A stretch of 64,000 nucleotides of DNA. Origin: Kappaphycus alvarezii. Its lineage: Eukaryota; Rhodophyta; Florideophyceae; Gigartinales; Solieriaceae. The position numbers were made by a program, and so were the translations under genes. The stretch covers positions 2,294,001 through 2,358,000 of the forward strand of contig NADL03000748.1 of NCBI GenBank assembly GCA_002205965.3, read 5' to 3'. Positions 5,086-55,593 of the stretch are shown piece after piece. How positions within the stretch are numbered: the first letter of the stretch is position 1; each line of letters opens with the position of its first letter. A model generated the notes under the pieces. The model did not search any database. It saw only the letters and a list, made by a program, of their open reading frames with translations, and had not been told where the DNA came from.

Positions 5086-5128
5086 GTTGAACCCCGCAGG
5101 CAAAGACATTTGCCTGCGGGAGTTCAAC
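5086..5128. repeat. GC-rich hairpin in AT-rich DNA
   Basis: The left arm GTTGAACCCCGCAGGCAAA (5086-5104) and the right arm TTTGCCTGCGGGAGTTCAAC (5109-5128) pair almost perfectly around a GACA loop, with one unpaired or mismatched position. The stem is much more GC-rich than its surroundings. It could be the end of a small mobile element or a foldback remnant. No adjacent gene explains it as a terminator. Confidence 0.75.
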
Positions 5129-6868: not shown

Positions 6869-6895
6869 TTTGGGAACTCCACAGGTTCCCCAAAA
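6869..6895. repeat. Short imperfect hairpin
   Basis: TTTGGGAAC and GTTCCCCAAA face each other across a short loop, with one bulged G. It is weaker than the hairpin at 5.1 kb and may be chance, although GC-rich stems are rare in this AT-rich flank. Confidence 0.4.
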
Positions 6896-12300: not shown

Positions 12301-15159
12301 CGATGCTCTAAATAAAGAATTTAAAGTTGCTGTCCTTACAAAACTAAAACTATGTCACAGCTGGCCCCCTTGTATCCACTAGGAAATTCCCTTCCATCAC
12401 TACGTCGTCACTGTAAATGAAAAATCTTGGTCTCTTTTCGAGCAGGATCAAATAGATGATAGCGAGACAGCTGCGTTGATTGGACAACAGAAACCTTTTC
12501 AAACCCTTTACGAAATTTGCATAGATAGGGTTCCACCGACATATGAAGGCTGAAATAAACTTTAGCGAAAGTAAGTTCTGTTTTTAGTTTAGCATCTATT
12601 TAAAATAAACATACTACCCAGATTTGAAGTCCTTTTTTTCTTTTTCATTAGAATATTTCGCTCCACCATCATGAGATGTGTTATATTCGTTTGATTTATT
12701 TGTCCAATGACGCCTCCATGAAAATGACGCTCCGCCAGGCAAGCGCGACAGGCACAATATTACTATTGCGTCATTCTTTTGCTCCTTTTTCGATCTTATA
12801 TGCTTCCTGGAAGTTTTCCAGTGCCGTTACAGCAGCAATTGCCTCCAATGTGAGGACATCTCAAAGGATGTTACATGAAAAACCTCCTGTTGGGAGTGAC
12901 CTGGTACTCCCTGTTCTGTTTTAAATTGCTATCTTTGGTTAAAGGAGACACGCTTTTGTACATTAATGTGTCAGGCCATTCAGTAATCGGAGGCGTGAAA
13001 AAAGGAAAAGAGAACCGTTCACAAAATCTGGCTGAAGCATAAGAAAGAATATCCGTTGAAGTTGATGTCTCTGGTTCTAACAATGGCAAAAATTTAGTGA
13101 AAAAGCTCTCCAAGAAAGAAGAATACCGCGTGCATGAATCAATGACAAGATAAGCTCAGAAACAGCGTTCTAATGGCTCTAACAGACAGTTGAAACCATG
13201 CAGATTAATGTTGCTTTATAGAGGGGGTAAGAGGTAATTTGGAGCTAATGCAACAGAGTAAGCAGCGCAATTACAAATCATTGAAGTCTTTGGCGGTGGA
13301 GGAATGGAACTCTAGAATTTCTTTGTTTCTGATGCCCGATACTGATCCTCAATTTATTAAGAAATTTATGGAGATAGAACAACAGCCTGTGCTTATAGGG
13401 ATGCAGGAAATGTTGAGAAAGCTTCTGTGAGCAATTTAGGAAGCCCAGCAAAAGTAATTAAAAGAGAGATCGCAAAAATTCCCCCACATATCGACTTAAA
13501 AGTATTGAAAACAATTCTAATGAGAGCAAAACGAAGCGCGTTTTAGAGGCTGGGTCAATTGGCTAAACTTTGTCCAAGTAAAATGTGTCCAACCTAGAGA
13601 GAGATACAATGACTCCATATGGTCTATTAACGCATTATTAAGACGATCGTACTTGCAAAATTCTGTATATCTCGCTTTGGATTGTAGCTTTGTAGTCTAC
13701 TTAAAGCGTGGTCACTGAATTCATTGTGCAGTATTACCATTGGAACATTTTCTGCGGACTGAATGTTATCCTCCGACAACCAATTGTCTCTTATATTCCG
13801 ATTCCATCACCGAAAAATCCTTCACGACGTTCTTCCACCAACATATTGTGAAGGATTCAACATGCCTTCAGAACCATACACATATCTTGGCATTACCAAA
13901 ACCTAAATGGAACATAAAGCACGTCAAACCGCTTGAAAAAGGCACCGAATACGTGTTCCACACTCTCTCTTGCACTCTCTCGTAAACGTACATTCTTTTG
14001 GGACTTTTCCCCTTTCCTATGTTCGTGGAGCTCATGAATATCTTTCACTCTGGATCAATTCCATCCGTGAGATAATAAAACCAATAGAACTGCTCTCCGT
14101 ACAACGTTATTGGGCTTTCATTGTAGGAAATCTCCCAGATAGTATCTCGCTAATGTATGGACTGACCCTTAGAATATTGAGGTCACCCATTGACCCTGGG
14201 TAACCGCACGAAAGGTGTCGTATCCACAAATCTAAGTCACAAATGGCCTCCATTAGAAGACTTGGAGACCATTACTACCTCTTTATTATTCCTTTAAGGG
14301 CCTTGAGACACGCGCCCACGCCCATTCCGCACAGTGGAGACACCCTAGCCAGCCAGGTAATCCTATTTCAGCGAAGGAATTCTCTATTCTCTGTATGTAA
14401 CCAGGTGTTGGAGAGCGAATTTAGTTATCGGAAAAGAGGTTAACAATCATCTTGCAGAACGCCTTAACAGAATCAAGAGTTGTAGACTCGCTGAAACGCA
14501 ATGAATCGCCTAAGCTATCAGCTAGGTAACCGTAACATATGTAGCGCAAAGCCGCAACCACTATAAGCAACCGAGACGCGCCATATTTTCCCGTGCAGTC
14601 TTGTCTTAGCCCAGATCGCAGCACATCACTTTCAAGAACCACAGATGAGACTAATTTGCGGAAAACATTCTTCGGCATCCGAAACCGGCGTTCGAATAGA
14701 TTATAAGGACAAAAGGGCCGAGTTTCCCATAACAGCCGTCCTACGCTTTTTCATGTTTCCAAAAGTAGTCCAACATAAGCATTCTATGTTCTGGGGAAAA
14801 TTTCCTGAATGTATTGGCCTGCCTGCCTGCCCGAGATCCATCCCACTTCCCTTTCTCTAGTACTCTGGATGTAACGGTATCATCTGCATATACAACCAGA
14901 TTGCCACTGTCAGATATACATCATCATCAAAATTCCCACGAGCCGATGTCCTTTGCTAATCCACTCTCTCGGACCCGATAGGTAAAGTAGGTGATACCGT
15001 AATTTGAATCTCAACCACCGACTGAGATAGCTAGCGTGCACCTCGGTGGCTCCACCGGTGCTTGGAGAAGAGATGAATCGCAGGCAAGTAGGATTGAAGG
15101 ACGAGCTGGGAAGATGGAAAACGAGCGAACAGGTGGGTCGCCGTGGCCGTTAGTCCTAT
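12301..15159. other. Compositional transition, no assignable gene
   Basis: Base composition rises from AT-rich to balanced across this stretch. Short open frames (60-85 codons) occur around 12.7, 13.2, 13.7-14.4 and 14.6-14.9 kb on both strands. None has a motif I recognise. The 13.2-13.4 kb plus-strand frame has natural-looking residue composition and could be a transposon remnant. I assign no product. Confidence 0.4.
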
Positions 15160-16126: not shown

Positions 16127-17441
16127 ATGCAATCGGTCGATCTCCCCATGTTTGTCACAGTAAAACACACCATAATACGAAAGAAGTGTACAGCCCAAAG
16201 CAATCATCCAAAAAACACCGGTACATCCAGAAAAGGCCGAAAAACGACTCCAAAACAAAAAATGACACAACTTCAACCAATACTGAGTGCATCGCAAGCG
16301 ACCGAAAAGTTGTCTCTTCTTTCTGAGGCGCAGAGGAAAAGGAGCCGATCTCGAAAGTTACAACTGCACGAGGGAAGATCCAGAACCCGATGAGGAAAAT
16401 GACAGTGACGCTCCGTGGCTCGAGTCATTTTACAATGCTGGGGTTCATGAAACATCGCTGATATGACAAATTTCACAGCGCGAGAATTCCAGTCGATCTG
16501 GGGAACTTTTTCGAGTTTCATCAGCCGGAACTACAATGTTAAAAGAGGCCGCCGTTCTCAATTTACACGGAAAGATGTTTTGTTTATGGCACTGACACTC
16601 ATGAAGCACGGGGGACCTCGGGACTTCGTTGAGAAAGCCTTCGCCATCAGTGGTCCGACATTCGAGAGAGCTGTCTCTGCTTTTATTTTGATATTTTCAG
16701 ATGAATTTTTTCGGCTCTGCGTCACTAGGCTTTCAACACATTGAAAATTCGAGAAATTACGTCGCAATAAAAGGCAGTTCAGGAATTTCCCTTATGCTCG
16801 TTATGCCACACATGTTACGTTTCAGAATTGCAACCGTCCAAGTGGGAATTTACAGGAAGCGAATAAGTAATTTTCTGGGAAGCACAGGCCGTATGGATTG
16901 AAAGTTGAGGTTTCCGTTCTCCCCACAGGGTTTCCAGTTGATTTCACCGGTCTTTACCCGGGGTCTGTGTCTGAAATCGATATATTCCATAAAAATATGG
17001 CTTGGCACGATGGGCAACTAGAGAAAACTGAGAGTCAGATTTTTTCTGAAAATGACGATGATATTGGAATATCTAGTTTCGAAATCCACTGGTCTGTTCT
17101 CGCGGCTAAAGGCTACCAGGGCACCATGGAGTTTTCAATTGCCTTGCATCCGAAGAAGAAACCTCGCAATCTTTATTTGACGAGAGATGAACATTTGTTA
17201 AATAAGACTGCCGCAAGCGACAAGATAATTGCGGAAAAACTTTTTTGGCCGTTTTTATAGCCTGTGAGGTGTTTTATCTTATAAATATCGATGTAATGAG
17301 AAACTGTATGCGGGTCTATGTCGTTGCTGTTTGGGACTTACTAACATGCATGTGGGATGGTATCCATTGCGGGACAGTGACCAAGTCTTTTATGTCAGCG
17401 CTGAAAACGTCTTGAGAAAATTGGGGATGAGACCACATTAA
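16127..17441 (+). mobile_element. PIF/Harbinger-type transposase, decayed
   Basis: The sequence encodes pieces of a DDE_Tnp_4 (PIF/Harbinger) transposase, the enzyme that cuts and pastes its own DNA transposon. In order I see a basic Lys/Arg-rich N-terminus (from 16127), an acidic patch EDPEPDEENDSDAPWL (about 16377), a helical segment MTNFTAREFQSIWG (from 16463), then VTFQNCNRPSGNLQEAN, SGKHRPYGLKVEVSVLPTGF, PGSVSEIDIF, KGYQG, ALHPKKKP, AEKLFW and a C-terminal LTNMHVGWHPLRDSD. The order and motifs fit the family. It is broken: frames shift near 16.45 and 16.7 kb, and in-frame stops occur just before the SGKHRPYG block and after the last DDE region. The residue expected as first catalytic Asp (before VTFQ) reads His, and the Asp expected in the PGSVSD block reads Glu. 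It is therefore probably inactive. I could not define terminal inverted repeats. Confidence 0.75.
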
Positions 17442-20779: not shown

Positions 20780-21126
20780 TACAGTACATTACACTACTGT
20801 ACTTGTCCAGACAAGTGCCGTATGGCTGTTGTGTTTCTGCGCTATACTGTGTACAGTGCTGTACAGTTACTGCAGTACTAAATGCTGGAAACTTCACGTA
20901 ACTTTTCTAATTCTTGTCGCCGTCCCCGTTTCATTGTGAGTCTCGCGCTTTCTGTAGGAATCAAAGTTAACGTTTTCTTCGAATGAGGCGTGGCTTAGAA
21001 GACAGTCAATTGTCGTCTACAATTTCTTGGTCACGATCATACTGTACAGTGCTGTATTGCTTTGTACAGTACAATAAACTACAGTATTTATACAGTCATG
21101 CAGGAACCGTACAGTACAGTACAGTG
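20780..21126. repeat. Cluster of GTAC-rich motifs
   Basis: TACAGTAC, GTACTGTAC-like and ACAGTGCTGTACAG words recur many times, for example near 20781, 20846-20870, 21040-21075 and the triple repeat GTACAGTACAGTACAGTG at 21109-21126. The unit is close to self-complementary. The same words recur elsewhere in the gene island. Confidence 0.7.
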
Positions 21127-21539
21127 TTTGTAGGAAAATTGTTTCAAAATAGAGTCGCAAACGGTTGCCATTGTAAACGCGAATCATCGAGGTGTGCTAT
21201 CCGCACGTACAAGTGTCATGATACGAGTGGTCAAATGTTGAAATCGAAACGGATTGATTCATGGATGTCGATGGATATAAAATAAATATTCAGAAGGCCC
21301 ACGAATTGGCCCTATGTGATAAACCACTAACGGACATTGCAAAGAATTGCAACAAGACTTTTTGTGGCTGCAGAAACCACTTGGCCTGATTCGGGACAGC
21401 TGTGCTCCTGTTGAAACCTCAATCCACCCTCCTCAAACAACTCACCTTCCTTTAAGCCTTTTCTGTTGCATTCAAAAAAATATACTGTTTCCAACTTTTT
21501 CTTCAAGCCTTTGAAAACATACAAAAGTTTACACTAAAT

Positions 21540-21700: not shown

Positions 21701-24700
21701 ATGTCAACTAATCTTCAAACCGCTTTCCTACCACCTCCACCTCCTCCAGCACCCCCCCGTTTTCAAACACTTCCCGTCTCAATTTCTTCACTCCAGCTAT
21801 GTCCGCCTCCCCTAACTGGCCCGAACTCTCCCGCCGTGCCCAAAATACCCTCTCCTCCCTCTCCAAAACCTCCCTAACTATTCCAAAGCCCTCCGTTCCC
21901 ACATTCATTCCGACCCGGCAAATCCCTTCCTCTGGCATGCCTTAGTCAAGCACCTCTCCTCCACCCAACCCCCTGCCACCGTAATTCCCCTCGTCGAAGA
22001 CGCAATCCGTCAAGTACCTCCCGGTCGCCGGGGGGGTCTCTTTGACGCTTGGGGTTCTCTCGAACTTCGTCGTGGTCGCGTCGATTCCGCACTCGCCATC
22101 TTCTCTCGTGGCATCGTCGCAGATCCTTACGCCCCGCTCTTCGCATCCCTGGCCTCTTTGCAACTCCGTTCCAAACTCGTCGATCAAGCACGAGCCACCT
22201 ATCGCAAAGGGAACTACATTATTTCCCCATCACGCCTTTTTGTGGAGGGCTTGGGCTTCGGCTGAGGCAAGGCTTGGTGCCGTCTATGTCGCGAGAGACT
22301 TGTGGAAGGTCGCCTTGGAAAGGGATCGTAGAAATCCAAAGGCTTGGTACAACCTAGCCTTGACTGAAAAGAAATGCGGTGCAAATCTTACCGAGGTCAT
22401 CAAGGTTCTGTACGACGCCCTGCACTACTGTCCTACTGATCCATGGTTAAGGCTCAGTTTGTCCAGATTAGAAGAATCCCGCTCGGGTCCTGCAGTCGCC
22501 TTGCGCGTCTTGGAGCCAGTGGAGAAGAGGAATGATGAGGTTATTTTGAGGGCAATGGCCCGATTGGAGGCTGATCAGGGCAATTTCGACAGAGCTCGCG
22601 CCTTGTTTAGAAAAGCTGCCGATGTCGAAGCAGTCGGCGGCTTTAAGAGGAAAAATAGAGATCCACCACAACCGTCAAGTCATTGCATGCCTGGGCCCTC
22701 ATCGAGGTAAAGACAGGAAATCCTGCTGCGGCGAGGAGGGTTCTGGAAGAAGCCATTAGCATAAATGACGGCGATGGCGCCGTGTGGAGGGCCATGGGTC
22801 AGTTGGAAGTCAAAGAAGGCAATTTCGAACGCGCAAGAAACGCGTTTCAGAATTCTGTTGCCATTGATCCCTCCGAAGCGCGAGTGCTTCTAGAATGGGG
22901 AAAGATGGAGGTGCTGGCTGGCAATTTAAAAGCGGCCGAGTCCCTGATGAACGTGTGGCAAATGCGGGTAATGTAAGGACTGGTTCCGATACAAGCAAGG
23001 ATGGCGATGATGGTGCTGCTGGACATAGTGTTCCTTCTGCAGATACTGAGACGGATTCAGACATGGTCACTAGCTCTGTTGGAATGGACCTTGAAGACGA
23101 TATCCCATAGGAGGCCCGTCAAAGAGGCTGAGAAACGCGCAGCTTACTCCGCATGTCTTGGCTGATGCGTTGCGAGAACGCGCATTACTCGCCTCAAGAA
23201 GTGGGCAGTTTGAGGATTCCCTGGCTCTGCTGACCCGGGCATCGGAAAATAGAGCCAGATTTTCCCAAGGGCTGGCGCCTCTTGCGTCCCAAGAAATGCG
23301 TTCAGTGGAGCTGAAAGCGCCAGGAAGGTGTACAGAACAGCATTAAAAAAAGCTCACATCAAAACACCCAAAGTTGTATCACTGGTGGGGGCAAGATGAA
23401 AAGTCCAGCGGTAACATTCCTGAGGCGCGCGGTTTATTCCGGCAAGCTACATGTGCAAATCCAGACTACATGTCGCGTGGTTAAGTTGGGGTATGCTAGA
23501 GAAGGGGGAAGGAAATTTGAAAGAGGCGTGTAGAATCTTCGAGCAAGCCTCTAGGAGGGCCGAGAAGGATTTATTGAGAGCACCATTTATCTTTCAAGCG
23601 TGGGGTAGAGTAGAGGAGCTCGATCGAGGACGACCGGAAATAGCTGTGATGGTTTTTCAGCGGGGTGTGAATTTGGTTCCATCGTCGGGGGCTCTGTGGT
23701 CCGCTTGGGGCTTGCTAGAAGAGCGGCGCGGGAATGCCAAAAGGGCAAGAGATTATTTGAAAGAGCCACGACGGAGGAACCGAGTTGAGCACAACGTGGC
23801 ATAGTTGGGCCCTGTTAGAATCAAACAGGGGGAATTTCAAGAGGGCGGGTGAGTGTTCCGAAAGGGCATGAGCATGACCCGACTGATGCGGCTCTTTTGT
23901 CATCTTGGGCTCGTTTGGAGGGTAACAAACTTGGGCATCCTGAACTGGGGAGGAGTTTATTTGAAAAGGCAGTGTCGGCTGACCCTTATTATGGACCTGG
24001 CTGGCACTCCTGGGGATGTTTGGAGATGAGCAGCGGGTCTTACGATAGAGCGAGGGAACTTTTCCTCAAAGCAGCCAAAGTCCAACCAAGGGACCCGTCG
24101 CCATACCACACCTTGGGTGTCCTAGAGGCAGAGCACTGTGATGATGGGGAGGCGCGGTGAGGAATTGGGCAAGGGCTGTTGAGGTAGCACCGGATCAACC
24201 TTTCAGCTATCAAACATGGGCCTTTTCGAGGGGCGAAGCGAGAGAACATGAAGGAGGCTAGACGCCTTTTCAATCTTGGATGGAGCGCGTGAAACAACGT
24301 CCAAAGGACTCTGCGTTACTACTACAGTCGTGGGCAGCATTGGAGGAGCAGAAGGGGAACAATGAGGAAGCACAGAGTTACTGCAAAGGAGTTTGAATGT
24401 AGACCAGGAAGAGCAGAGACGTGGCATTCACTGGCGCGAATAGAATTATCTCGTGGAAATCGAGATGAGGCGCGCAGACTGGTGAGGCAGGGGTGGATGC
24501 TGTGAACCAGGGTGCAAACTTGAGTTGTTTGTATGTGATGTGGGGGACTTTGGAGGCAGAAGATGGGAATATTGAAAAGGCCAGAGCACTTTTGCGGCGG
24601 GTGTGCGAGCAAATCCAAGTCTCGTAGCGACTTGGAAGGCATATGCGAACATGGAACGAAATACGGATCGGAAAGCCGAGGTGGGGAACTTATGCTCACG

Positions 24701-24751
24701 GCAGATGCTCTGGTTATGCGAGAAGGACAGTCGGATGTCGAGTTTGGTTAG
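21701..24751 (+). CDS. MBB1: HAT-repeat RNA-processing protein, MBB1/HCF107-like, frameshifted
   Basis: The gene encodes about 1,000 residues made almost wholly of half-a-TPR (HAT) repeats of the form W-x-x-W-(G/A)-x-L-E-x(3)-G-N-x-x-x-A-R-x-L-F. I count about twenty, for example LFDAWGSLELRRGRVDSA (near 22036), VWRAMGQLEVKEGNFERA (near 22783), LWSAWGLLEERRGNAKRA and GWHSWGCLEMSSGSYDRA (near 24000). This pattern is typical of Mbb1 in Chlamydomonas and HCF107 in plants, which bind and stabilise plastid psbB/psbH transcripts. Start is 21701 or 21799; the end is 24751, or 24821 in another frame. An Asp/Ser/Thr-rich insert (about 22970-23110) interrupts the repeats. The frame changes a dozen or more times, and the breaks I resolved are each recovered by one extra base in a homopolymer (C run 21872-21874, G run 24490-24493, T run 24590-24593). 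The repeats are otherwise intact, so assembly indels are likelier than a pseudogene. PRPF6/Clf1-type splicing HAT proteins are the alternative. Confidence 0.7.
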
Positions 24752-24997
24752 CTTATCGCGGTTGCTAGTAAAAAACGTAGCCTGTAAGGCGATTACTTTG
24801 CGGATATCGGAACTTAGGTGAGAGGTAGTCTTTCCAGCAGACTGTTACGCTTTCGATAAGGGGTCACTTGTTATGTGCAGACTTAAGTTTCCAAATGGCT
24901 GGGTAGTGTTTGTGCAATGACCTGAAGGTTTGTGGGCAATGCTACGATGACTGCAGGCGTTACTGGTAACGATTTTCTATAGGGACTGTGTCCACAG

Positions 24998-25318
24998 ATG
25001 TACAAACGACAAATCCGAGTTGACAATGATGCCCGTGGCAGATTGCGGCAGGATACTTGTGAGGACTCAGCACGCACCGGGGCGGGAAAGGGCGGACGTG
25101 GATGTAAAGTCGAAAGGACATTGATCTGTTGGCTTTTGTGGATTTGTTCAGTTGACCAAACATGCCGTGCGGATCGATGCGTAACAAACTGCAGGAATTG
25201 CAAACGATGTGTAATCAAAACATCTGGAAGTGAGGAGATTGTGCTATGTCCTCTTTGTCTTTGCGTTTTTGTTATGACAGATAAAGATGCTGGCCTGTTT
25301 GGATCTGAGCATGTGTGA
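24998..25318 (+). CDS. Candidate Cys-rich small protein
   Basis: A 106-codon frame contains a dense cysteine block, CRADRCVTNCRNCKRC followed by CPLCLC, in its C-terminal half, with a basic Gly/Arg-rich N-terminus. The spacing loosely resembles a zinc-binding module, but I cannot match it to a family. It sits just downstream of the MBB1-like gene, where frameshifts are common, so the true boundaries may differ. A longer minus-strand frame overlaps it. Confidence 0.2.
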   Translation: MYKRQIRVDNDARGRLRQDTCEDSARTGAGKGGRGCKVERTLICWLLWICSVDQTCRADRCVTNCRNCKRCVIKTSGSEEIVLCPLCLCVFVMTDKDAGLFGSEHV

Positions 25319-25460
25319 TTAGAGCGAATGTCAGGAAGCGAAGGCCGGATGGGAACCACTTACGGATGGGGTAAGCGTTAGTGGTGTCACGGGGGAACAG
25401 GACTTGTTTATTGGTATAAGACTTTGGCAAGCATGTTCTTGGATACTTGTGTAATTTAAG

Positions 25461-25598
25461 ATGGAATCGATTTCCTTTGATGAGGATGTGGTTAGACTTG
25501 AGTCCGAATGGCCGATAGTGGTGCAAGATTTAAAAGAAATTGTTGCTTTGAGAAGCAAGGATGGGGGTAACACGCTTCCTACATTAGAGGCAAAATGA
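25461..25598 (+). CDS. Candidate 45-residue open frame
   Basis: The frame opens with ATG at 25461 and ends with TGA at 25596-25598. The product begins MESISFDEDVVRLESEW and is acidic with a balanced, protein-like composition, unlike most short frames here. It could be an isolated fragment of a gene cut by indels. No function is recognisable. Confidence 0.2.
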   Translation: MESISFDEDVVRLESEWPIVVQDLKEIVALRSKDGGNTLPTLEAK

Positions 25599-26103
25599 CT
25601 GCTGCAGGTACAGACATAGGAATTGTAACTGTGACAACCATTGCTCAATGCTGTTTACGCCAGGGGTAATGGGCCGGAGGAGGAAGGGGTATGATGGGTT
25701 GAGACAGGGCCGGATGGCGGGGACACCGCAATGGGTTTTGAATCAGGTTGGAACGAATATGGTCCAATGACGCGTTACACAAAAAGTTTCTTTACTTTTG
25801 CCAATGGCAACGCACGAGGACTCGCAATCCAGGGCCCTGAATAACAAGTAACGATTGCCGTTGGCCAACTAAGTGGTGTTGCCAACTGCGGTTCCAGAAC
25901 GATTCCAACCTCAAAGGCTACCTTCATCTTCGTCATCAGGTTATTCAACGCACCCAATTTGATACCTCCACCGCTGATCGACTACTTTGAAAGCTGCACT
26001 CTGACAAGACCACCATATGCTGCATTATTCCGAAAATCAGAAACGTGCGCCAAACACTAGTCATGTCCCATCTCAACCCCCGCCTTCCGTCCCGCTACTC
26101 CGG

Positions 26104-27272
26104 ATGAATCTGGGCTTTCGCGCGCCAATATCCTCCATTCTAAATCCCAATCACCCCGGCTGGCGCCAATCCTCCCTTTCCCGCATTCGCTTCCTCCCGC
26201 TACACCGTCATCCTCGTCTTAATCCGCTTTGCCACTTCTCGTCTCAACCCTCTTGGCCTTCTCCTATTCCAAGCCGTCCTCTCCCCTCTCCACCCTCACG
26301 AGTCACACGCGACGGCTATACGCATTTCGGCCGCCGACCCTCCCCTTCCAGTCCTGTTTTTCGTTACCTTGTTGCCGCTTCCTCGGTCGGGCTTGGAGTT
26401 TACATCTATTCCAGCATTGATTATGCCCCATTACGGGTCGTAGGAGAATCATGGGTATGTCGCGATCCCAAGAACTTGCCGTGGGTGCCTCGGCGTATCA
26501 AAACATGCTCGAACAATGTGCCGGCCGGATCCTGCCGCTACATCACCCTGAACACAACGCGTGCGGAAAGTCGTAGCAAGGATCGCCTCACGGTTCGGCG
26601 ACTGGATTCCTCATTGAGTGATGGCTTTGAATGGCAGGTCGTTGTCATTGTCGATAACGAGCCTAATGCCATGTGCTTTCCCGGTGGCAAAATGTTGATT
26701 ACCACAGGTCTGCTCGGAATACTGCCGTCATCGGATGACGTTGCAGTCGTGTTGGGCACGAAATATCTCACGCGCTGAATCGACATGGTGCAGAAACTAT
26801 GCACTTGCAACACATGTTGGTCCCGTTGCTATTGCTGATGAATCAGCTGTTTGACATGCGATGGGTATCCTCCATGTTGGTGTCGTTGACATTATCTTTG
26901 CCGTACAGTCGCAAGCTGGAATATGAGGCTGATGAGGTTGGATTGCTCCTTTGCACAGAAGCCTGCTTTAATCCTAGCGTTGCCCCGGGGTGTTCAAAGA
27001 CTCGGGGATATGGAAAATCGACGCGCTGGTGGACTGAATAACGTGGTGGCCCTTTTTTGTCAACCCACCCGCAATCAAAGGAACGGGCTAAGCGATTGGA
27101 AAAAGCTGTGCCAGAGTGCCTTCGAAGGTATAACGACCGGTGTGTTGCATCATCGTCCTTTCGAGAGGGGTGGGAGATTTTGCAGGGCATCGGTTCACAT
27201 TTTGAGCGGCGGATATGGCAGGGGTTGGCGACTGGGTGTGTTGAGTGGAACGGATTTGTGGTCAATGAATGA
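26104..27272 (+). CDS. OMA1: OMA1-like M48 metalloprotease, frameshifted
   Basis: The product resembles OMA1, the zinc metalloprotease of the mitochondrial inner membrane that responds to membrane stress. In order: an Arg/Ser-rich, acid-poor N-terminus (start ATG 26104; 26017 also possible) suited to mitochondrial import; a hydrophobic segment FRYLVAASSVGLGVYIY (near 26363); the family block ITGRRRIMGMSRSQELAVGA; NAMCFPGGKMLITTGLL; the zinc site HEISH (codons 26757-26771); the third ligand motif EYEAD (26919-26933); and a C-terminal LSTHPQSKERAKRLEKAVPE, the usual M48 end. All metal ligands are present. The frame changes about six times, and each change is recovered by one base in a homopolymer (C run 26426-26429, G run 26754-26756 right before HEISH, T run 27053-27058). 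This suggests assembly deletions in an intact gene. A recent pseudogene is the alternative. Confidence 0.8.
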
Positions 27273-28116
27273 AGCGCTGCGGACAAGGCACACAATGAGT
27301 GCGGTGGGTTGCAGCTCTAGGAAAAATCAAGCAGGGCGAGCTGGATCTCTGTAGATCAGGGACACCTAACTTTTTCCGTATTCCATACGAGCAACACGGA
27401 CAGGCCTCTATCCGATTTCCCATACTGCAGTGATGCACGAGACTAGACGTGTAGGTTGTATAGCACGATGTAGTAGGAAGGATAGCATTTCGTGTTCCGA
27501 GTGGAGATGGTGTCGTTGTTGGGTATCGAGTATTAATGAAAGCACGCTAAGCTGCAGCTCCATTCCCACTCTCGAGAGATTTCGATCACATTGTGCACCT
27601 CAGCAGAATATCTTGTTGACAGGAGATTATATCCCCATCAGCACCTCAGGTATGATGGTTCAGTAGATTTCAAGATGTTGACATGACACAAAGTGTGGTG
27701 GTTGTATCACAAGATGCAAGGTGGTGGAATGAGCAAAAGCATTTCATGGAGTGCGACATGGCGCGAGAGTTGAGGCAATGTGGTGCCATTGATTTTTGGT
27801 AGTATTGTAGAGGGAGCGGAGGGCGAGGTGTACGGATGGTGGGTGGGTGGTTTGGAACATGTAAAGTTTGGATTGAGGGGTAAATATTGTTATGGGAGTG
27901 GTATAGACGGAAGTTGTTGATTTTGTGTGGTGTGATATGGTGAAGCAGTGAGGTGGAAAGGGTAAAGGGAGTGTTGACGTTAAAAGAGGTTAGAATTGTG
28001 GTAAAGATGTGCATGTACTAAGAAATGTGCAAGTAAAGAGTATACGGTAGATGGTGAGGCATGTCAGGAAGGATATTTACGAGGGACAGTCATAGCAAAG
28101 ATTATGAACTTGGACA
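27273..28116. other. Intergenic with purine-rich plus strand
   Basis: From about 27.69 to 28.0 kb the plus strand is G/A-rich, so the minus strand is C/T-rich and carries a 114-codon low-complexity frame I do not believe. By analogy with the C-rich leaders at 21.6 and 32.0 kb, this may mark the 5' region of an unrecognised minus-strand transcript, but no coding sequence follows to the left. Confidence 0.35.
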
Positions 28117-28311
28117 GTGGCAGTGAAGGATGCTAGAATGAAAGCGAGACTGCATTTAACAGTCTACGGTCTCGTCTCAGGCGGTTGCAGCAAAGTGGCC
28201 GTGGCAAAAGGCTTGATTCAGCTTGCATTAGTCGCTGACGATTCACAGGCATGTGAGGGGTCGTTTTGGTGGGTTGTGAAAAGACAGCATGGTATATCCG
28301 ACGCAAGATGA
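28117..28311 (+). CDS. Candidate fragment, faint L7Ae-like look
   Basis: The 64-codon frame contains the stretch VAKGLIQLALVADDSQA, which recalls the core strand-helix of L7Ae/S12-type RNA-binding proteins. A second coding-like stretch in a shifted frame just downstream (about 28303-28395) begins with TQDELPRKSVRVGLVEF. A homopolymer indel could separate two parts of one small gene. The similarity is weak and I do not assign a function. Confidence 0.15.
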   Translation: MAVKDARMKARLHLTVYGLVSGGCSKVAVAKGLIQLALVADDSQACEGSFWWVVKRQHGISDAR

Positions 28312-28989
28312 ATTGCCGAGAAAGAGTGTGAGAGTTGGGTTAGTTGAATTTTGCGAGGGGGTGAAGAAAATAATCGAAGAGGCGGTTTGCGGGAGGTGTT
28401 GAGTGAAAGGATGGGAAAGGAGTGAGCATTCTCTTGTGAGAGCGGTTGTTGAGGAAGCGGCTTGATCTGGTTGGCGATTGGGGAAACAAATATCTGGGAC
28501 TGGCGCAGTGACTTGAGCTGAGGAAAGGAGGGAAATGAGGTAAAGTTAGATGTTAAGAATGTACAAAATTGACATCTTTCCACTCGAAAGGTGATTGGGA
28601 CAATGTGGTAGGCATTTTCTCTCAACTGGATCAATTGCTGAGCTGAGATCAATTGAGGGCTGGTGTGGAACAGATTTGACGTCTGAAATGAATAAATTAT
28701 TCGGTGTTTGAATTGGCAAACGGTGGCGACTTCGGCCTAGGCCTTGTGACGCATCTTTTTTAAAATTACCCCGACTGAAACATCGATGAGCACAAAATCG
28801 TTCTTTTCGCCGTTAAACCGCAAAAAGGGAGGAAACAGTACATAATAGCAGTATTGTATTTTCAAGTTGATCTGTAATGTGCTTTTCGTTGTTTGAATTG
28901 GGCTTTACGGTGCCGCAAAGTGGCGGCATCAGAAGATTCATACTTACAGTACTTCAATTATATTGCTGCTAAGGTACAGAACAGGCTGT

Positions 28990-29075
28990 CCAGTACAGTA
29001 CGGTACAGTATCACCACACGTCGACACCAGTCCGGAGATGACCTATGACAAAATGAAAGCATTGCACAGTACTGT
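28990..29075. repeat. GTAC-rich motif cluster
   Basis: CAGTACAGTACGGTACAGTA lies at 28991-29010, and ACAGTACTGTAATG follows near 29067. These are the same words as in the 20.8-21.1 kb cluster. Confidence 0.6.
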
Positions 29076-29162
29076 AATGTATGCGCTGTAAAGCAGTACA
29101 CAGAGTGTTGAGCAATTTGTGAACAAATTCTTTCTGGATCCGGTTGCGTCGGATTGGAAGAG

Positions 29163-29582
29163 TTATGATGAAGCCATTGCGTGACGACAGCAAATGAAAG
29201 GGCGAAACAATAGTTTCTCTTCTAAACCAAATTTTGGTCTTGATGCCACGTTGCCTATTGTACAAAACAATGAAATGTTGTGGGGATATTGACAAAGCTG
29301 GATTTGGAACTGGTTGGCCTCCCCTACAGTAAATCCGTAATCAAGCAACAGCATCATACCATTATCTCCATGCTTTGCCCTAATGTTGCAACATATTTCA
29401 CGAGTTTCTACGGGGCGAGAGGGGGGTTTCTTACCAGTTGCAGTGAAAAGTAGATCGAAGCTGCAGCGAATAATGTGCGGTTGATATACAATTTGGCACA
29501 CGTACGCTACCCTTTTGCAAAGGTCTGTCAAAGCTTGGATATTTTCCACAAGCACATGTAAAGTGGCCTGTATAATCGGCAA
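29163..29582 (-). CDS. Partial SET-domain methyltransferase-like fragment
   Basis: A 139-codon minus-strand frame contains REICCNIRAKHGDNGM followed by MLLLDYGFTV and NQFQIQL. This matches the end of SET domains of the Rubisco LSMT/SETD3 type, where a GEE-x-x-(I/N)-Y-G block precedes an N-x-x-LLL-x-YGF block. That family methylates lysine or histidine in proteins such as Rubisco large subunit or actin, and is common in plants and algae. Only this C-terminal part is recognisable. The Tyr expected in the YG motif is not in place, and the upstream part of the SET domain is not readable in one frame. A frame loss upstream, as in the neighbouring genes, or a gene remnant would both fit. A SINE-free, unrelated chance match is possible but unlikely given the long match in order. 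Confidence 0.45.
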   Translation of the reverse strand: MPIIQATLHVLVENIQALTDLCKRVAYVCQIVYQPHIIRCSFDLLFTATGKKPPSRPVETREICCNIRAKHGDNGMMLLLDYGFTVGEANQFQIQLCQYPHNISLFCTIGNVASRPKFGLEEKLLFRPFICCRHAMASS

Positions 29583-29789
29583 TGTTCCAGCGTTTCAAGT
29601 AAGATGCCAGGCGATGGACGTGTTTCGGTTGTGCGCAATTATGGGTGTGGAGCAAACTGGTGCGGCGGGAAACAATGGAGGCCAACACTCACTCGATAAG
29701 TAATGAATAAATAAATAAAAAAACGCTCACGGCCAGTCATGAGAGCCGTTCTAGAGGAGAAAAAAAGTACTTGAAACAAAATCGCTGAG

Positions 29790-30310
29790 TGTACAGTACC
29801 ATAGATCTATAACTGGCGCCTACACTCGAGCCTTGCAAGTGGTCAACATGATGCTGGCTTTTGCGCAAATGAGATGGTGGCAGGCGAATGGCCATACCCT
29901 ATCAGTGGTTATCGATCCAAGGCGACTGCCATTTCTGTTTCCGGAAATCGCAGCGTGACGGGTACTGTCGGTCACTGACATGAATAAGTGAGGAGGGCGG
30001 GAACAGGCCAGATTATGTAGCGACATCACACCGAAGCGTAAAGTCTCTGCCTCCGTGTTTTTTCTTTTCTTTGCAAACTGGTGGTGTATTGTAGTGGTCT
30101 ACAGCCGTTGTACAAGTACAGTGCGTCGATAATGACAGGGTTTCGCCAATGGAAGACTCGCGTGTTCGTGCTAGCAGCACCTCAACCAGATATAGTCGTT
30201 AGGCGCTGCTAAATCATAGGTGTCGATGCCATAAGCACTGTACTGTACTGTTACTTTCTGTTTTTTTGGCGATCGGAGCCCTCTGATTTGAAAGTGCACA
30301 GTACAGTGGA
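29790..30310. repeat. Scattered GTAC-rich motifs
   Basis: GTGTACAGTACC (near 29789), GTACAAGTACAGTG (near 30110), CACTGTACTGTACTGTTA (near 30236) and GCACAGTACAGTGG (near 30296) are spaced through otherwise featureless sequence. Short, non-conserved open frames overlap them on both strands. Confidence 0.6.
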
Positions 30311-30654
30311 CAGAGGTAGGCCGTAAGAAGGTAGATGCTGTTGTTGATATCAGAAATGCAACAGCGCACTACTGTACCGCAGCAGAGGTGTTCTGCATTG
30401 TCCAGTCTAGCCTGGAACTGGCTGCCACTTTGAAATAAAAAAAATCGGATGCACAGGCTTGGCCACGCACGCACGGGTAAACTAGCCCACCCTTTCTCAT
30501 TTGTTGTAAATTGGGTGGATCGGAAGAAGAGTCCCTCCTCTAGTGCTTTTCACGTCAAGGATGAGGCTACAACCCAACAGTATCATCGACATAGTCAACT
30601 GCTTTAGTCAACGCGGGCCCAGGCGAAACGCCATGCTTTTTGCATAGGAAGGAA

Positions 30655-30670
30655 TACTAATCAATTTCAG
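30655..30670 (+). other. Possible intron branch point and 3' splice site
   Basis: TACTAAT (30655-30661) is followed seven bases later by CAG (30668-30670). This is the arrangement of a strong branch point and acceptor in intron-poor eukaryotes. It lies about 160 bases upstream of the candidate plus-strand gene at 30.83 kb. No donor site could be fixed, so chance is possible. Confidence 0.25.
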
Positions 30671-30778
30671 GTTATTTGACTTGTAACAGTTTTGCATAAA
30701 AGTGCTGGACGGTCTGAAATTGGTGACATTTAAAATTTGAACTGATCTATGAAGCATTTCTCGAGCCTTGGAATCATT

Positions 30779-31093
30779 TCATTGGTTGGACTGCTTAAAT
30801 TGAAGAGTTTCAGTTTTCAGGCTTGCCAGATATGGATGGAACTGAAATCCGTCAGAGTAGTTTGGAGAACAACTACTCAACGCAATTGGGTCAAGCCCTA
30901 AAACAGGTTTCAACAAAAAGAAAAGTGTTTCAAATTTATCCAATCTGGGCTTGGCGACAGCAGGTCTCTTGCTAGAAGAGCGGACAATTAGAATTTTGAA
31001 GGGCTTTCGTCTGCCTGAATTGCCCAATGACGTAAAAGCAAATGTCTTACTCTTTCGGCTGCAACGAAAATTAGCGTAATTTGATTCAACCAT
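30779..31093 (-). CDS. Candidate 104-residue ORF opposing a plus-strand frame
   Basis: The minus-strand frame starts with ATG at 31093 and runs 104 codons without interruption. Its product is basic, with MVESNYANFRCSRKSK at the start, and matches no family I know. The opposite strand holds a competing candidate (30832-31079), which I judge somewhat likelier. At most one of the two is probably real. Confidence 0.2.
   Translation of the reverse strand: MVESNYANFRCSRKSKTFAFTSLGNSGRRKPFKILIVRSSSKRPAVAKPRLDKFETLFFLLKPVLGLDPIALSSCSPNYSDGFQFHPYLASLKTETLQFKQSNQ
30832..31079 (+). CDS. Candidate small protein with one frame break
   Basis: From ATG at 30832 (MDGTEIRQSSLENNYSTQ) the frame reads well to KQVSTKRK. 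It then resumes one base out of phase as SNLGLATAGLLLEERTIRIL and ends KANVLLFRLQRKLA at TAA 31077-31079. The length of 248 bases fits one missing base, close to A-rich runs near 30.92 kb. The predicted product of about 82 residues is helical and amphipathic. I cannot name it. It lies downstream of a possible intron end, so it could be a last exon. Confidence 0.3.
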
Positions 31094-31959
31094 ACGCTAG
31101 TGGATTTATCCGTATCAAAAGAGAGGGATGTAGCACGACGTGACTAGCTTCTCGTTTGTGTACTTTCTCTGCAAAGTAACGCGCCAAATGTAAGAATTGG
31201 CCGAGTGAAGTGAGAACAAAATGTCTCATCCACCCGCAAATGAGGTTCTACAGTTTATTTTAGTTAAAAATATTGCATATAATATGATGATGTTACTTTC
31301 ACAAGAAATCAGGAATTACACTTTTTTTTTTGAATGCAGGGTGCTTTGGAAATCGATGTTTGGAGGGTAGGAAATGTCAGGTGCTGAATTGGGTAGGTAA
31401 TCTTTGATGTAACTACAATATACTTATTAAAGTATAAAATCACGTATGCTGTTGAAAATGGATTGATTGTGTAAAATTAAGTGGCTGAATGATAGCGTTA
31501 GTGGCGCTACTAACAACGACGGTCTGGTGCTCGCAGCTGTGACATTTTTGGTGGTGATGTACTGTACAGTACAGTGTGTCCATAAAAGGACGGTTGAGGG
31601 ACAATTTCAAATTGCAAATGTATTTGATTCAATAAAAATTTGTAAACACATGGATGACATAAAATCAGGAGATGCATCTTTTTCAGGAGCAGGGCTGTTT
31701 TGAGTGGCATTTTAAATCCGTAACCTAATTGTTTACATTAATGTGCAGGACAGTACAATATCAAGTAGCATGGGACCATGCCTCTTAACATCCACCATAC
31801 GCCTTCCAACCGTAGCGCAGACGGCAACTTGATCGAGTATTACAAGTATTGAGTGGTATATCTCCAATCGTCAACAAAGGGTCTGGTTTTTTCTTACAAA
31901 CATACGTACTTTGTAATCTATAGAAATTTCATCCAAAACTCCCAACTAAAGTACACCTC
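31094..31959. other. Intergenic, AT-leaning, with GTAC motif
   Basis: Only short frames occur. A clean TGTACTGTACAGTACAGTG sits at 31559-31577 and ACAGTACAATA near 31751. The last hundred bases lead into the pyrimidine-rich leader of the next gene. Confidence 0.4.
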
Positions 31960-32309
31960 TAAAACAATCAAACCAACCACCCAGCTAGGTGCCAGCCTCC
32001 TCCCATCAACACCACCCAAAACGCCCCTTCTTCTCTTCTCACGGTGCCAACCACACCTCCATTCGCCCGCGAATCCCCCCACCCCTCTCCCCTTTTATCC
32101 CTCCCCACACTCTTCAACCCCTTCTCATAATTGCCTATGTGCCACCCGCCCCACCACAACTGTGCCTCGTTTCCTCAATTGCATCCGATCCATTCTCCCC
32201 CACCTTACCCCGTCTACCCCAATACACCACACTCGCCCATCCATCCCCGTCCCGAAACTACCATACCCCCAAACATCACGCCCCACCCACTCTCCGCACC
32301 CCTCCTCAC
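31960..32309 (+). promoter_or_regulatory. C-rich leader of the gene at 32.3 kb
   Basis: The plus strand is almost purely C, T and A for 350 bases, with repeated CCACCC and CCCC words and few G. All three plus-strand frames stay open across much of it, which composition alone explains. It directly precedes the first credible ATG (32310). The position matches the C-rich tract before the MBB1-like gene. Confidence 0.35.
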
Positions 32310-33548
32310 ATGGCCCCTCCCACCTCCCCCTGGCTAAACACCCCCTCCTCCCTTCCCCCAGGTTGTCCCTGGAACTCCGTCCCCACCAAACCATCCCCCG
32401 ATTGGCCCTTACCCGTCCCCGACCTCCGCAGCACCAGCACCGTAACCGAAAGTGCCTCCAGTTCCGAAAACGACAACCTCTCCCACGACGATCACTCCCC
32501 CACCTCCTCCCCCACCCGTTTTCATCCACCACGCTCCACCATCCGTTGGACTCCCGATGAATTCGACGCCGATGACGACCTCCTCACCCCAATCTCTTCC
32601 TCGCGTCTCTCCGCCCAACCCCCCTCCGTACGCACCCTCCCCCGCTGTGCAGTGCTCAATTTTCGCAAGGAAGGAGACAGCTTGAGGTGGGCCTCACGCG
32701 TCACTCAGAATTGTGGCGGCGTCGCCGCACGCGCTCATAATTTGAGGACGCTTTCTCGTTGGAGGAGTTTTCGTCAAGGGCTTTGCCAATGGTGTGGCAA
32801 TCTACCGGTGGAAACCCCAGGTTGTCTACGGGTCATGATGAGCACGTCATAGTGCCTCGTCTTGTGAAAGTCGCAATGGGGCAGACGGGGAGAAGAATAA
32901 GCCAAAGTTGGTCGATCAGAGTGCATCGGAGAAAAACTTTGCGGAGAGAAGCTTCCGATCCGGGTTTGGATCGCAGAGGTCTATTTCAAACAGTCCTAGT
33001 TTTAAGAGGACTATTGTCATGGCAAATGAAATGCGGAGGCCTCGTTTTGGTCTCGCCTGGCGCATAATAATAAGTATCGTGGCAAGGCGCATTCAAGGTT
33101 ACAAGGGGATGAGAAGGGTAGAGGCCAGAGTGGGGGCCGTGGTGACGGTGGCACTAGAGGTTTAAAAAGAGCACTTGGAATGCCGTTGTCAAGGCAGTGA
33201 CTCGCAGGAACATGAGCGATGAGGAGACGCAAGTGGCGAGGAAGGGTGGGAAGAAGGGCTCGTTGATTCGGCGGCTTGTAGATAGAAAGCAAAGCAAAGA
33301 GGATGTGAGACGTGAGGGATGCGCAGAACTGGGCGTGTGGAGGATAGGGTAAGAGCGTTAAAATTGGGGGATGAACGCGGGCATTCGAATGCGTCGAAAG
33401 AATGGCGGTGGGAGACCGTCCGTGGATAGCTCGAGGGATGGGTTTCTGCCCGGGCGCCGTGTGCGAAGCTCACTGAGTGGGGCTTTGAGGACTAGGGGTG
33501 AGGAGGTGTCGGCAACATCTCAGGATGACCATATGTTACCTTTATGAC
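32310..33548 (+). CDS. Unassigned disordered protein gene, frameshifted
   Basis: Starting at ATG 32310 (MAPPTSPWLNTPSSLPPG), the product has a Pro/Ser-rich N-terminus, an acidic patch SSENDNLSHDDHSP, then STIRWTPDEFDADDDLL. In other phases coding-like sequence continues: DAFSLEEFSSRALPMVW, DQSASEKNFAERSFRSGF, VTRRNMSDEETQVARKGGKK and SSLSGALRTRGEEVSATSQD, ending at TGA 33546-33548. About 410 residues, mostly predicted disordered, with alternating acidic and basic Ser/Arg-rich segments. The phase changes about six times; those I resolved fit single missing bases in homopolymers, as in the OMA1-like gene. The CAGGTGAGT at about 33576 would make a good splice donor, so the gene may extend further. 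No family is recognised. A nuclear or cytoskeletal regulatory protein would fit the composition, but that is speculation. Confidence 0.5.
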
Positions 33549-34899: not shown

Positions 34900-36597
34900 T
34901 AACATAACGATGGACGACAATGACACGACAAAGCGCCTGCGATGCGCCAACGAATCCCACCGCCGAAAGTTTCGTACCGGCACACTGTGCTGGGAATGAA
35001 TCGCTCTAGTGGGTGCGTAGTGGCGGGGGCAGGTGCACCAGAGGAGTCAAAGGCGATAGGATAGACGTCGAAGCCGGATCTCGGACTAGGCCGTGGGCGG
35101 GGCGTCAGGCGACGTGGTAGCTTGCGTTCCACGACCAAGAGCTTATCGCGTGGGTAAGCCCTGCCCCGGCAGCATGGGTAGCCTTTGCAGAGGCGTCGGG
35201 GGGGCAAGCGGTGCGATGGTCACCGAGGTTGTCCATCTGGCTGCTGCAATGTTGCATTGAAGTCGGTAACGAGTCCGACACATCATCGTGTGTCCCAGGT
35301 TGTCGGAGTATATGACGCCATGTGGCCTTGGAGAACGTGGTGGCGGGGAGCGTGAACAGTAAGCAAGGCTGCTGCGGAGGTATGTCGGAGGGCGGGGCCG
35401 CGGATGGGACGCCAGCCACTCCCCCTCACCGTATCACGGAGATTGTCGTCGAATGGGCGTACAAGGCATCTCCCTTAATACTTACGCGTGATTCACCTCG
35501 TCAAATCCACAGACAGCCCCGAAGCCGGGTCACTGGACTCAGTGTCTTCACGACGCTGTTTACCCCTGCGTCGCTAGTGGTAGTGGGTATCTCCAAGGCA
35601 TAATTCCTCGCGTCCCTGCCCAATATCCCCAGCACGGCCTCGGGCCCTTCCACTCTGACCGTCTACCTGTTTCACCAATCAATATCCAAACCCTGCGCTG
35701 GGTGCATCAAGAGGCCAGGGCCAAGGTGCACTGGCACCATGAAGATGTACAGTATGGACGGCCGACTCTAATCCGGCGCACCATAGCACATCCGATATCC
35801 GTTGTCGCATCTGCATCCATTCCTTCCGGTACATCCCGCGGCTGCCTTCCTCCCTGTCCACCCACCCCTCCACTACCACAGCGGTCTCCAACGCCCATTT
35901 GGCCGTCATGTGCTGCTGACACCTGCGACTCAAGCTCTTCGCGGACTCGTAACCGCCCCACGTCAATACTCCACCCGCCGAGTGGACATCTCGGTGACCA
36001 TGCCGCCGACCTTTGCCCACCTGGCTTCAGGCGCATTCACCGCCACAACGCCCTACGCAATGCTCTGGCATACCACGTCATCCGCGCTGCTGGACTAAAC
36101 TGCCAATTCGACTTGCTACTCCACGTCCTTGGCACGGAGCTCAGGTCCGCGGACATACAGCACACCCCCTCTAACCCCCTACCGTCGACTCACCCCATCC
36201 CACCGCCTCCGATATCACGGCGGTCTGGCATTCAAGACCACCGCTATTGCAAAGGCCACCGAGGCTGCCCTCGCGGGCCTCGCCACGGTGTTAAGCTCAG
36301 ACATCTCGATCATAATCTCACTCGCCGCTTGACGCCCGTCGGCAACGGCCCAGTCCGAGACCCTGCCTTCGACTTCCCCCGTCTAGCTTTCGGCTCCTTG
36401 CGCGCGCCTTCCCAGCCTCCGTCCAACTACTTGATGAATTCATCCCCTGCCATTTACGCGCCGATACCACACTCCCGATGTTGTGGTCCATCTACGGGCC
36501 CTGTGAAGGCAGCACACTCATTAATGATCTACAGGCCAACTCTGTAAGGCTCACTGGGCACCCCACTCCGGATACCACAACGCATGCTCGTGATTGA
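34900..36597 (+). mobile_element. 3' part of a non-LTR retrotransposon (LINE)
   Basis: The clearest part is at about 35994-36160: GDHAADLCPPGFRRIHRHN then ALRNALAYHVIRAAGL and LRSADI. This matches the region after the reverse transcriptase in many LINE polyproteins, where a Cys/His knuckle, DHA-x(3)-C-x-x-G-x(3)-RHN-x-LR, is followed by a helix with AGL and a RPAD-like box. Further on, in another phase, VQLLDEFIPCHLRADTTLPM continues to a stop at 36595-36597. The catalytic reverse transcriptase core is not readable, so the copy is 5'-truncated or strongly eroded upstream. The stretch is GC-rich, and long frames overlap on both strands; the minus-strand ones are shadows. At least one frameshift lies between the knuckle and the C-terminus. 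The exact start is uncertain. Confidence 0.5.
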
Positions 36598-38842: not shown

Positions 38843-40571
38843 TCACCGAATAAATGAAACGAAGCGCCATTTATCGCTAATATTAATGCGTACCTCTCTG
38901 ATTGGCAAGCTTGATTTGAATGGAAGGCCGCGTCTTTGAATGAAAGAGGAACTACCTTGAGACCAGCGTTTCTCTCGCGTTTTAGCCTTGGCCGCCTCAC
39001 AATTGCGCTTCTTCCCGTTTCTGCACTCGATCGCTTCTTCCGCCGCTCTCTTTGCCTCCACTCTGCGCCGTTTCTCCTGCTCCTTTTCCTACCGCTCCAG
39101 CCCAGCTTTTTAATATGCATACCACCTCCTGTCGGGAAAGATCAAGACCGAAGGATTATCGAAAAATCCCGAGCGCACAACGGATCAGGTAAACCGTCGC
39201 GTTTCATTTCCAATACTGTGCCGCGCGATCCTTTTCTAGATCCTCTGCCGAGGACATGGATCTGTCGCAGGAAGACTGGCGAATTGCTCCGCCAACAGCA
39301 ACCGCCATATTCAACGGCCACAGACCAGTGAGTCGGAACCCTTCCCGTACTTCCTCTCACACACAGCGCTCTGGTATCCCTCTTTGATGGCCTTTACCAC
39401 ACCCCATGCAGCTTCTCCATAGAACTGAACTTCCGATTCTCCTCGACAGCCAACTTCATCACGACGGTGTTGCAGTAATGTTTAAGAGGACCAAATACCG
39501 CAACATCCAAAGGCTGAAGGCGGTCACTCGTGTTTGCGGGCAACGCCACAGTGACAATCTTGGCATCGAAATGCTTCTCGATAGCCGAAGATATCATGTG
39601 GGATCGGCACGCATCAACAAATAAGATCAAACAGTCTTCGCGCGGATGCTGTTCTCTCACCACATCAATAAAAGCCGTAACCCATTCTTGAAATGTAAGG
39701 GTGTCCACAATGCCCATTTCAGGGCGCCAAAAGGCTTTCAATCCTTCCGGCGTCAGCTTGGTGACCTGTTCTCTGTCTAGTTTAGGTTCGTTCACGCGCT
39801 TGAAAACTGGCGCAGGAAGGAAGAAGAGTCCTGCGGCGTTGATACACACGAGGAAACTGATGCGGTTCTCATACTTGAACGCGACTTCGGGCCTACAGGA
39901 ACGAGTCCTAAAGTAGCGAAAAAACGTTTACCATGCTTACCACACAAATCTCGACCTGGGGTAAACCCAGTCTCATCCAAGTTGAACACTTGAGTCAGCT
40001 TGCGAGTGTTATATTTCTGGTGAATAATTGCCACTTGTGCGAAAAACGTAACCACATTATCACCATTGAAGGCAGTCAAGCGATGGTGGTCGACCGGACG
40101 GGCAGCCAAGTTGCTCAAGCTCTCTGTATGCCTTGCCAGAAACTGTGAGAGCCAATACCGCGAAAAAAAAGCCCGCTCCAGTCTTGCTCGCGCTCTCGCT
40201 CCCAGCCATAGGCTCCACCTTGAATCGCATGGCCTGCTCCCGAACGCACTGTGATCCAAAAAGGCCACTTCTCCTAACTTACTCTGCAGTCGTCCGACAA
40301 GCTCAAGCTCTTCGCTCGTCGTTAGAACAGTGCTCCGATCGTTTTCACGATACTTCAGGTAGAAGCATTTTTCTGCATGCGCTATGATGGGCGCCTGTCG
40401 ATGCAGCCATCGTGCTAGGGCTGCTCGTGAGAAAAAGGTCTTCCGTGGGTCTTTCATAGATACAGCCACAGCGCTGAGAGACACGCCGATTTTGAGCTCA
40501 TTAAGACCATCAGTTAGGTCCGCCTTAGCACGCAGAGCCTGCATACTTGTCGGATATAGGACGCGAGTCAT
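38843..40571 (-). mobile_element. Pogo/Tigger-type DNA transposon
   Basis: The minus strand encodes a DDE_1 (pogo/CENP-B type) transposase. ATG at 40571 gives an N-terminal helix-turn-helix region (ALRAKADLTDGLNELKIG, then FFSRAALARWLHRQ), a second DNA-binding helix set (WLSQFLARHTESLSNLAAR) and the catalytic domain. FNLDETGF (first Asp), LILFVDACRSHM (second Asp) and SDRLQPLDVAVFGPLKHY (third Asp) are all present. In a shifted frame the family's tail motif EEVREGFRLTGLWPLN follows near 39.3 kb, and a Lys/Arg/Glu-rich coiled coil VEAKRAAEEAIE ends near 38.84 kb. All three catalytic acids survive. Frame changes near 39.85, 39.40 and 39.3 kb separate the blocks; given the homopolymer indels in neighbouring host genes, some may be assembly errors. 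Terminal inverted repeats were not identified. Confidence 0.75.
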
Positions 40572-44497: not shown

Positions 44498-44902
44498 TCA
44501 AGGCATCGTTCTCCTTCCTGCCCCTAAAACGCCTGCAATGCCCCCTCCGGTTGCGTTGACGCCCCCCTGTGCCGTGTGAGTCCGACCGATTCGCCTCTCT
44601 CCAACTTTAAACAAATAACGAAGTGAATTACTGAGGTGCTGTGAAACAGCCGGTATACGCTTGGCGTCAACGGTCCAGACGAGAGAGACGACTTCATGGT
44701 TCGGATGAAACAAATCGCTCCGCTGAGCACCGGTGGCCGTGCGCAGAGGAAGGAGCTGGCCTCGACAGCTACATGGAAGACCTCCAAGGGTGTAGCGTCG
44801 ACGTAGTGGAGCGATTTTATCCGAACACTTTCGCACAGATGAGATATACAAAAGATCGTCTACGTATGCCACAACTTCCAACCAACTCAAACTCAGCCTC
44901 AC
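44498..44902 (-). mobile_element. Trace of a Ty1/copia-like reverse transcriptase
   Basis: A minus-strand frame of 134 codons begins with VVAYVDDLLYISS followed by a helix and a Tyr/Leu/Gly block, which resembles the catalytic palm of copia-type reverse transcriptase. The rest does not match well. It would be a short, old remnant. The match rests on one motif. Confidence 0.25.
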
Positions 44903-55590: not shown

Positions 55591-55593
55591 TAA

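Follow-up and report, generated by a model that had tools for sequence, protein, structure and literature searches.

Single-base frame steps in two conserved genes of a Kappaphycus alvarezii contig: probable uncorrected assembly indels

Genes whose reading frame changes every hundred bases or so raise the question of whether they have decayed in the organism or were broken on the way to the assembly. This question was addressed for a window of 64,000 nucleotides (the whole stretch analysed) of the red alga Kappaphycus alvarezii, contig NADL03000748.1. A previous sequence-only reading had described three genes, one OMA1-like, one MBB1-like and one at 32.3 kb, as broken almost only by homopolymer contractions, and had attributed these to uncorrected long-read deletions. 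For two of the three genes, uncorrected single-base indels of the assembly were found to be the best explanation, and we hold this with considerable confidence. The features considered are collected in Table 1.

Table 1. Features of the window, with their positions, strands and the evidence for, or condition of, each.
Feature	Positions	Strand	Evidence or condition
HAT/TPR-repeat gene (the MBB1-like gene of the sequence-only reading)	21912..24701	+	Frames, Pfam TPR matches, frameshift-tolerant alignment, posterior
OMA1-like M48 metallopeptidase domain	26433..27143	+	Pfam match to PF01435 split between two frames, alignment with 17 relatives from bacteria, posterior, residues
Putative third gene of the sequence-only reading (open stretches only)	31989..33548	+	No Pfam family, no codon peak
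Harbinger-type transposase remnant A (Plant_tran)	13821..14750	-	About 3 frame steps, 5 in-frame stops
Harbinger-type transposase remnant B (DDE_Tnp_4)	16451..17257	+	One frame throughout, 2 in-frame stops
DDE_1 transposase remnant	39397..40250	-	A single clear frame step, an uninterrupted domain stretch of 450 bp; upstream limit by eye

Two conserved genes in three frames

The translation of the HAT/TPR-repeat gene is scattered over all three forward frames, and Pfam TPR families match pieces of it in several frames between 21.8 and 24.2 kb, with HAT families remaining below their cut-offs. In the frameshift-tolerant alignment, the repeats keep their length of about 34 residues over most of the steps. 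Tandem repeats of this length with tryptophan and aromatic positions are shared with the MBB1/HCF107-type HAT proteins of chloroplast RNA processing, and such positions are described for HAT motifs in PMC8635915. That paper gives 10 HAT motifs for Chlamydomonas MBB1, whereas the array found here is longer, at about 2.8 kb. The name MBB1 is putative, being taken from the repeat type. When one piece of the gene was searched by sequence against PDB chains, the only structures covered, the splicing factors SYF1 and PRP6 came out on top; no relatives of the gene were found in viral_contigs.

The OMA1-like gene is likewise distributed over all three forward frames, with Peptidase_M48 (PF01435) matching at 26.6–27.0 kb in two different frames. 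This match, together with the zinc-site motifs, places the gene among the M48 peptidases, and one piece also matched a bacterial M48 structure in the PDB. As in 17 bacterial M48 relatives, the HExxH and ExxAD motifs of the zinc site are present, with TGR preceding the domain and STHP following it. The near-invariant M48 residues are retained in 36 of 39 cases, the yardstick being the 91–100% of near-invariant columns retained by bacterial members tested singly. The sole difference from OMA1-like M48 metallopeptidases, in a comparison that covered bacterial relatives only, is the broken frame. The name OMA1 is our assumption, carried over from the sequence-only reading.

Number, sign and position of the frame steps

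Frame steps were counted with a forward-backward model in which one base could be skipped or re-used, both signs had equal prior and a stop cost the same as a step. The M48 profile was built from 17 bacterial relatives with the TGR motif, selected from 80 fetched; the repeat-gene profile was circular, with 34 columns, and came from the gene's own clean repeats, so that it involves some circular reasoning and is less strict than the profile of the M48 gene. The main figures combine profile and codon usage at a step penalty of 6. Counts from an unsupervised codon model by itself were unstable (9 to 16 steps for the HAT/TPR-repeat gene and 2 to 4 for the OMA1-like gene), and profiles were therefore adopted. 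An early hand reading of the HAT/TPR-repeat gene, with about 19 missing bases to 2 extra, was not upheld by the later posterior.

The HAT/TPR-repeat gene was found to hold 13.2 missing and 7.5 extra expected steps, about 21 in total (11.5–14.7 and 7.5–8.0, respectively, at other penalties), with its linker at 23.0–23.17 kb ambiguous between one missing base and two extra ones. The OMA1-like gene presented 4.5 missing and 1.1 extra steps, about 6 in total (4.1–5.6 and 1.0–1.7 at other penalties), and one further step, beyond the profile fit and seen by eye only, lies at the domain start (26426–26429). Together, the two genes carry about 26 steps of one base over 3.5 kb, which corresponds to about 7.5 per kb and a mean spacing of about 130 bases. 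The expected in-frame stops at penalty 6 were 0.04 and 0.03 for the HAT/TPR-repeat and OMA1-like genes, or about 0.07 for both. Anchor stretches contained 0 stops in 698 codons, compared with 65 in 1403 when the same stretches were read in the other two frames; these anchors were hand-picked inside open frames, so that the count is not independent and the model posterior is the better figure.

The reliability of these counts was assessed on 62 M48 genes that the profile did not include (from 63 loci, of which one was skipped), which yielded 1.12 missing and 1.28 extra steps in 43.7 kb at penalty 6 without the codon term, the worst single gene (L071) reaching 0.65 steps. This low rate places the steps of the two genes far above model noise. 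An earlier control on the 17 genes of the profile itself had given 0.41 missing and 0.43 extra in 13.4 kb; it and the first simulation were both redone with genes outside the profile. In a deletions-only simulation the model returned 293.2 missing and 5.1 extra bases, with deletions spaced at least 45 bases apart, a spacing that matters since a close pair of missing bases may pass as one extra base. Given so few spurious extras, the extra-base share observed in the genes is probably not all confusion of sign.

Over the two genes together, a missing base accounts for 0.67 of the expected steps, a ratio to extra bases of only about 2:1. That the two genes are frame-broken, being spread over all three frames, was confirmed, but the breaks are not contractions almost exclusively, as had been claimed, about one third of the expected steps being extra bases.

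The six homopolymer runs named in the sequence-only reading all lie where it had placed them, those at 21872–21874 and 26426–26429 falling outside the profile fit. Missing bases were nevertheless not concentrated at homopolymers: the 11 localised missing-base clusters (penalty 7) had 0.17 of their weight at runs of at least 3, against a background of 0.24, with positions as under uniform loss, and all 16 localised clusters gave an enrichment of 1.0 (95% interval 0.1–4.0) in such runs. The cluster at 24.59 kb does fall at a run, with a weight of 0.92, and the 5 extra-base clusters lean to runs of at least 4 (share 0.40, background 0.11), although these are few events. When contraction of runs of at least 4 was simulated, draws of eleven events gave shares of 0.34–0.70, and none of 2000 draws was as low as 0.17, which rejects the model in which all missing bases come from contracted runs of this length and leaves a mixture compatible; draws under uniform loss ranged from 0.06 to 0.44. 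For contraction to a run of two, the enrichment of 0.9 (95% interval 0.1–10.8) is compatible with either model. The window holds 10 A/T runs of at least 8, against the 18 predicted by a first-order model (chance 0.03), which weakly suggests that long runs have been shortened and speaks in part for the sequence-only reading. According to PMC12007338, deletion errors of long-read assemblies accompany homopolymers of 2 to 8, a pattern from which the present genes depart, with no enrichment at runs of at least 3. Taken over both genes, the steps look scattered.

Transposase remnants and the remainder of the window

The window also contains three decayed cut-and-paste transposase remnants from two superfamilies. 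Two are of the Harbinger type (DDE_Tnp_4/Plant_tran), and the third is DDE_1, which we take to be of the pogo/Tigger type. Two of the steps of remnant A follow from Pfam stretches in three frames and the third was placed by eye; its stops lie inside the matched stretches. Combined, the remnants presented about 4 steps in 2.4 kb and 7 in-frame stops, their lengths and one step being judged by eye. The chance of so few steps at the rate of the two genes is 0.001 if there are 4, 0.007 if 6 and 0.03 if 8; the remnant steps were found by eye and from Pfam stretches, with a sensitivity below that for the genes, and the remnants were spotted through long open stretches, which biases them toward few steps. 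The comparison of indels in genes and transposons that the sequence-only reading had suggested speaks against a uniform error rate along the contig, which is doubtful; error density may vary along it, or remnant steps may have been missed. Stops and steps are swapped between remnants and genes, which indicates that the genes were broken by a different process from the one that decays the transposons. In viral_contigs, no relatives were found of the DDE_1 remnant piece or of two pieces of Harbinger type, and two pieces searched among phages had none there.

The third gene, said to behave like the other two, was not corroborated. No Pfam family was found in six frames of 31–36 kb at E 0.1, and a step-tolerant codon scan at 32.3 kb showed no peak above 14, with shuffles reaching 8.6–16.1. 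As the scan was trained on the other two genes, it is not independent, and the outcome is a failure to verify and no disproof.

Several other features were observed. A reverse transcriptase-like fragment with a YVDD motif by eye (44501–44902, minus strand) and an RNase H-like fragment (59007–59483, minus strand; Pfam RT_RNaseH, E 0.023, below cut-off) may each be a retroelement remnant, and the open stretch at 42385–42657 (plus strand), with a codon score of 14.7, about the top of the shuffles, resembles a reverse transcriptase end by eye only. In Pfam scans, 41–46 kb and 57.5–62.5 kb yielded no additional domains at E 0.1. Two segments that match in inverted orientation over 130 bases, with 70% identity (35064–35189 and 36248–36376), are possibly the ends of an old element. 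Short TACAG/TACTG repeat tracts recur between genes (21060–21130, 28980–29100 and 31558–31577), and the window is of two compositional kinds, with a GC content of 0.30–0.36 at 1–12000 and 50000–58000 compared with 0.41–0.55 in 14–50 kb. Repeat pairs of at least 80 bases, sought within the window as a yardstick of error, were absent at E 1e-5, the longest weak self-match being 130 bases at 70%.

Assembly error or decay

Many single-base steps, no stops and the retention of conserved residues make uncorrected indels the best explanation for the two genes, both of which would most likely be intact in the organism. Dense single-base steps in otherwise conserved genes, as expected of a long-read indel artefact, are what was found, and neither in-frame stops nor lost catalytic residues, the marks of a neutral pseudogene, were seen in the two. 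Concentration of missing bases at homopolymers was absent, a feature that marks homopolymer-type error and not all read error. Gene-breaking indels occur in published long-read assemblies (PMC12007338, PMC8445201), and such errors resemble the present ones in being single-base indels, mostly missing bases, that split gene calls without true stops. We infer that the steps arose during sequencing or consensus building rather than in the organism: poor polishing or thin coverage in an assembly made from indel-prone reads would leave indels behind, here about 7.5 per kb, and the scattered steps would be better matched by low-depth reads with random indels than by errors purely in homopolymer length. 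The cleaner transposase remnants could reflect added depth from reads of other copies, or coverage that varies along the contig.

A competing idea, that both genes lost their function and gathered small indels as genuine pseudogenes, would suit the uneven density of steps over the window and the abundance of decayed mobile elements in it. It has to accommodate about 26 steps without a stop, although 4.8% of random substitutions yield one: at 3 substitutions per indel 3.8 stops would be expected (chance of none 0.023), and at 8 per indel 10 (chance of none 4.5e-05). At 1 or 2 substitutions per indel the chance of no stops rises to 0.29 or 0.08, so that the stop test hinges on the true ratio, and no usable substitution-to-indel ratio for pseudogenes was found in the literature. 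The transposase remnants, a natural yardstick of decay within the window, give 7 stops for about 4 steps, and this, like the 36 near-invariant residues kept by the protease, argues against decay of the genes, which we consider improbable. A similarly low probability is assigned to collapsed haplotypes, that is, two diverged copies merged into one consensus that left indels in real genes; the phenomenon is reported for another eukaryote assembly (PMC8445201) and could cause local differences in error density, but no second copy was found within the window.

Steps real in the DNA and corrected in expression, by insertion/deletion RNA editing or ribosomal frameshifting at many sites, would account for the absence of stops, the conserved residues, both step signs and the transposons having fewer steps than the genes. 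About 26 corrections of both signs, at varied sequences in two nuclear genes, would be required, and no common motif was noticed at the steps by eye, the only means used. We know of no system that makes so many frame corrections of both signs in two nuclear genes, and we regard this as a remote chance and the least credible reading; if true, widespread restoration of frame in nuclear mRNA would also explain why the transposons have fewer steps and more stops.

Uncorrected assembly indels are hence retained as the preferred reading. The earlier conclusion that such indels truncate gene calls survives as the best explanation for two genes, without its homopolymer argument and its third gene. Gene calls over 21.9–27.1 kb are not trustworthy, and since the steps look scattered, the homopolymer label is unfit for choosing a repair method. 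The transposase contrast offers a check within the window, in which stops without steps indicate decay and steps without stops indicate error. Neither the HAT/TPR-repeat gene nor the OMA1-like gene should be counted as a loss or a decayed gene of this alga.
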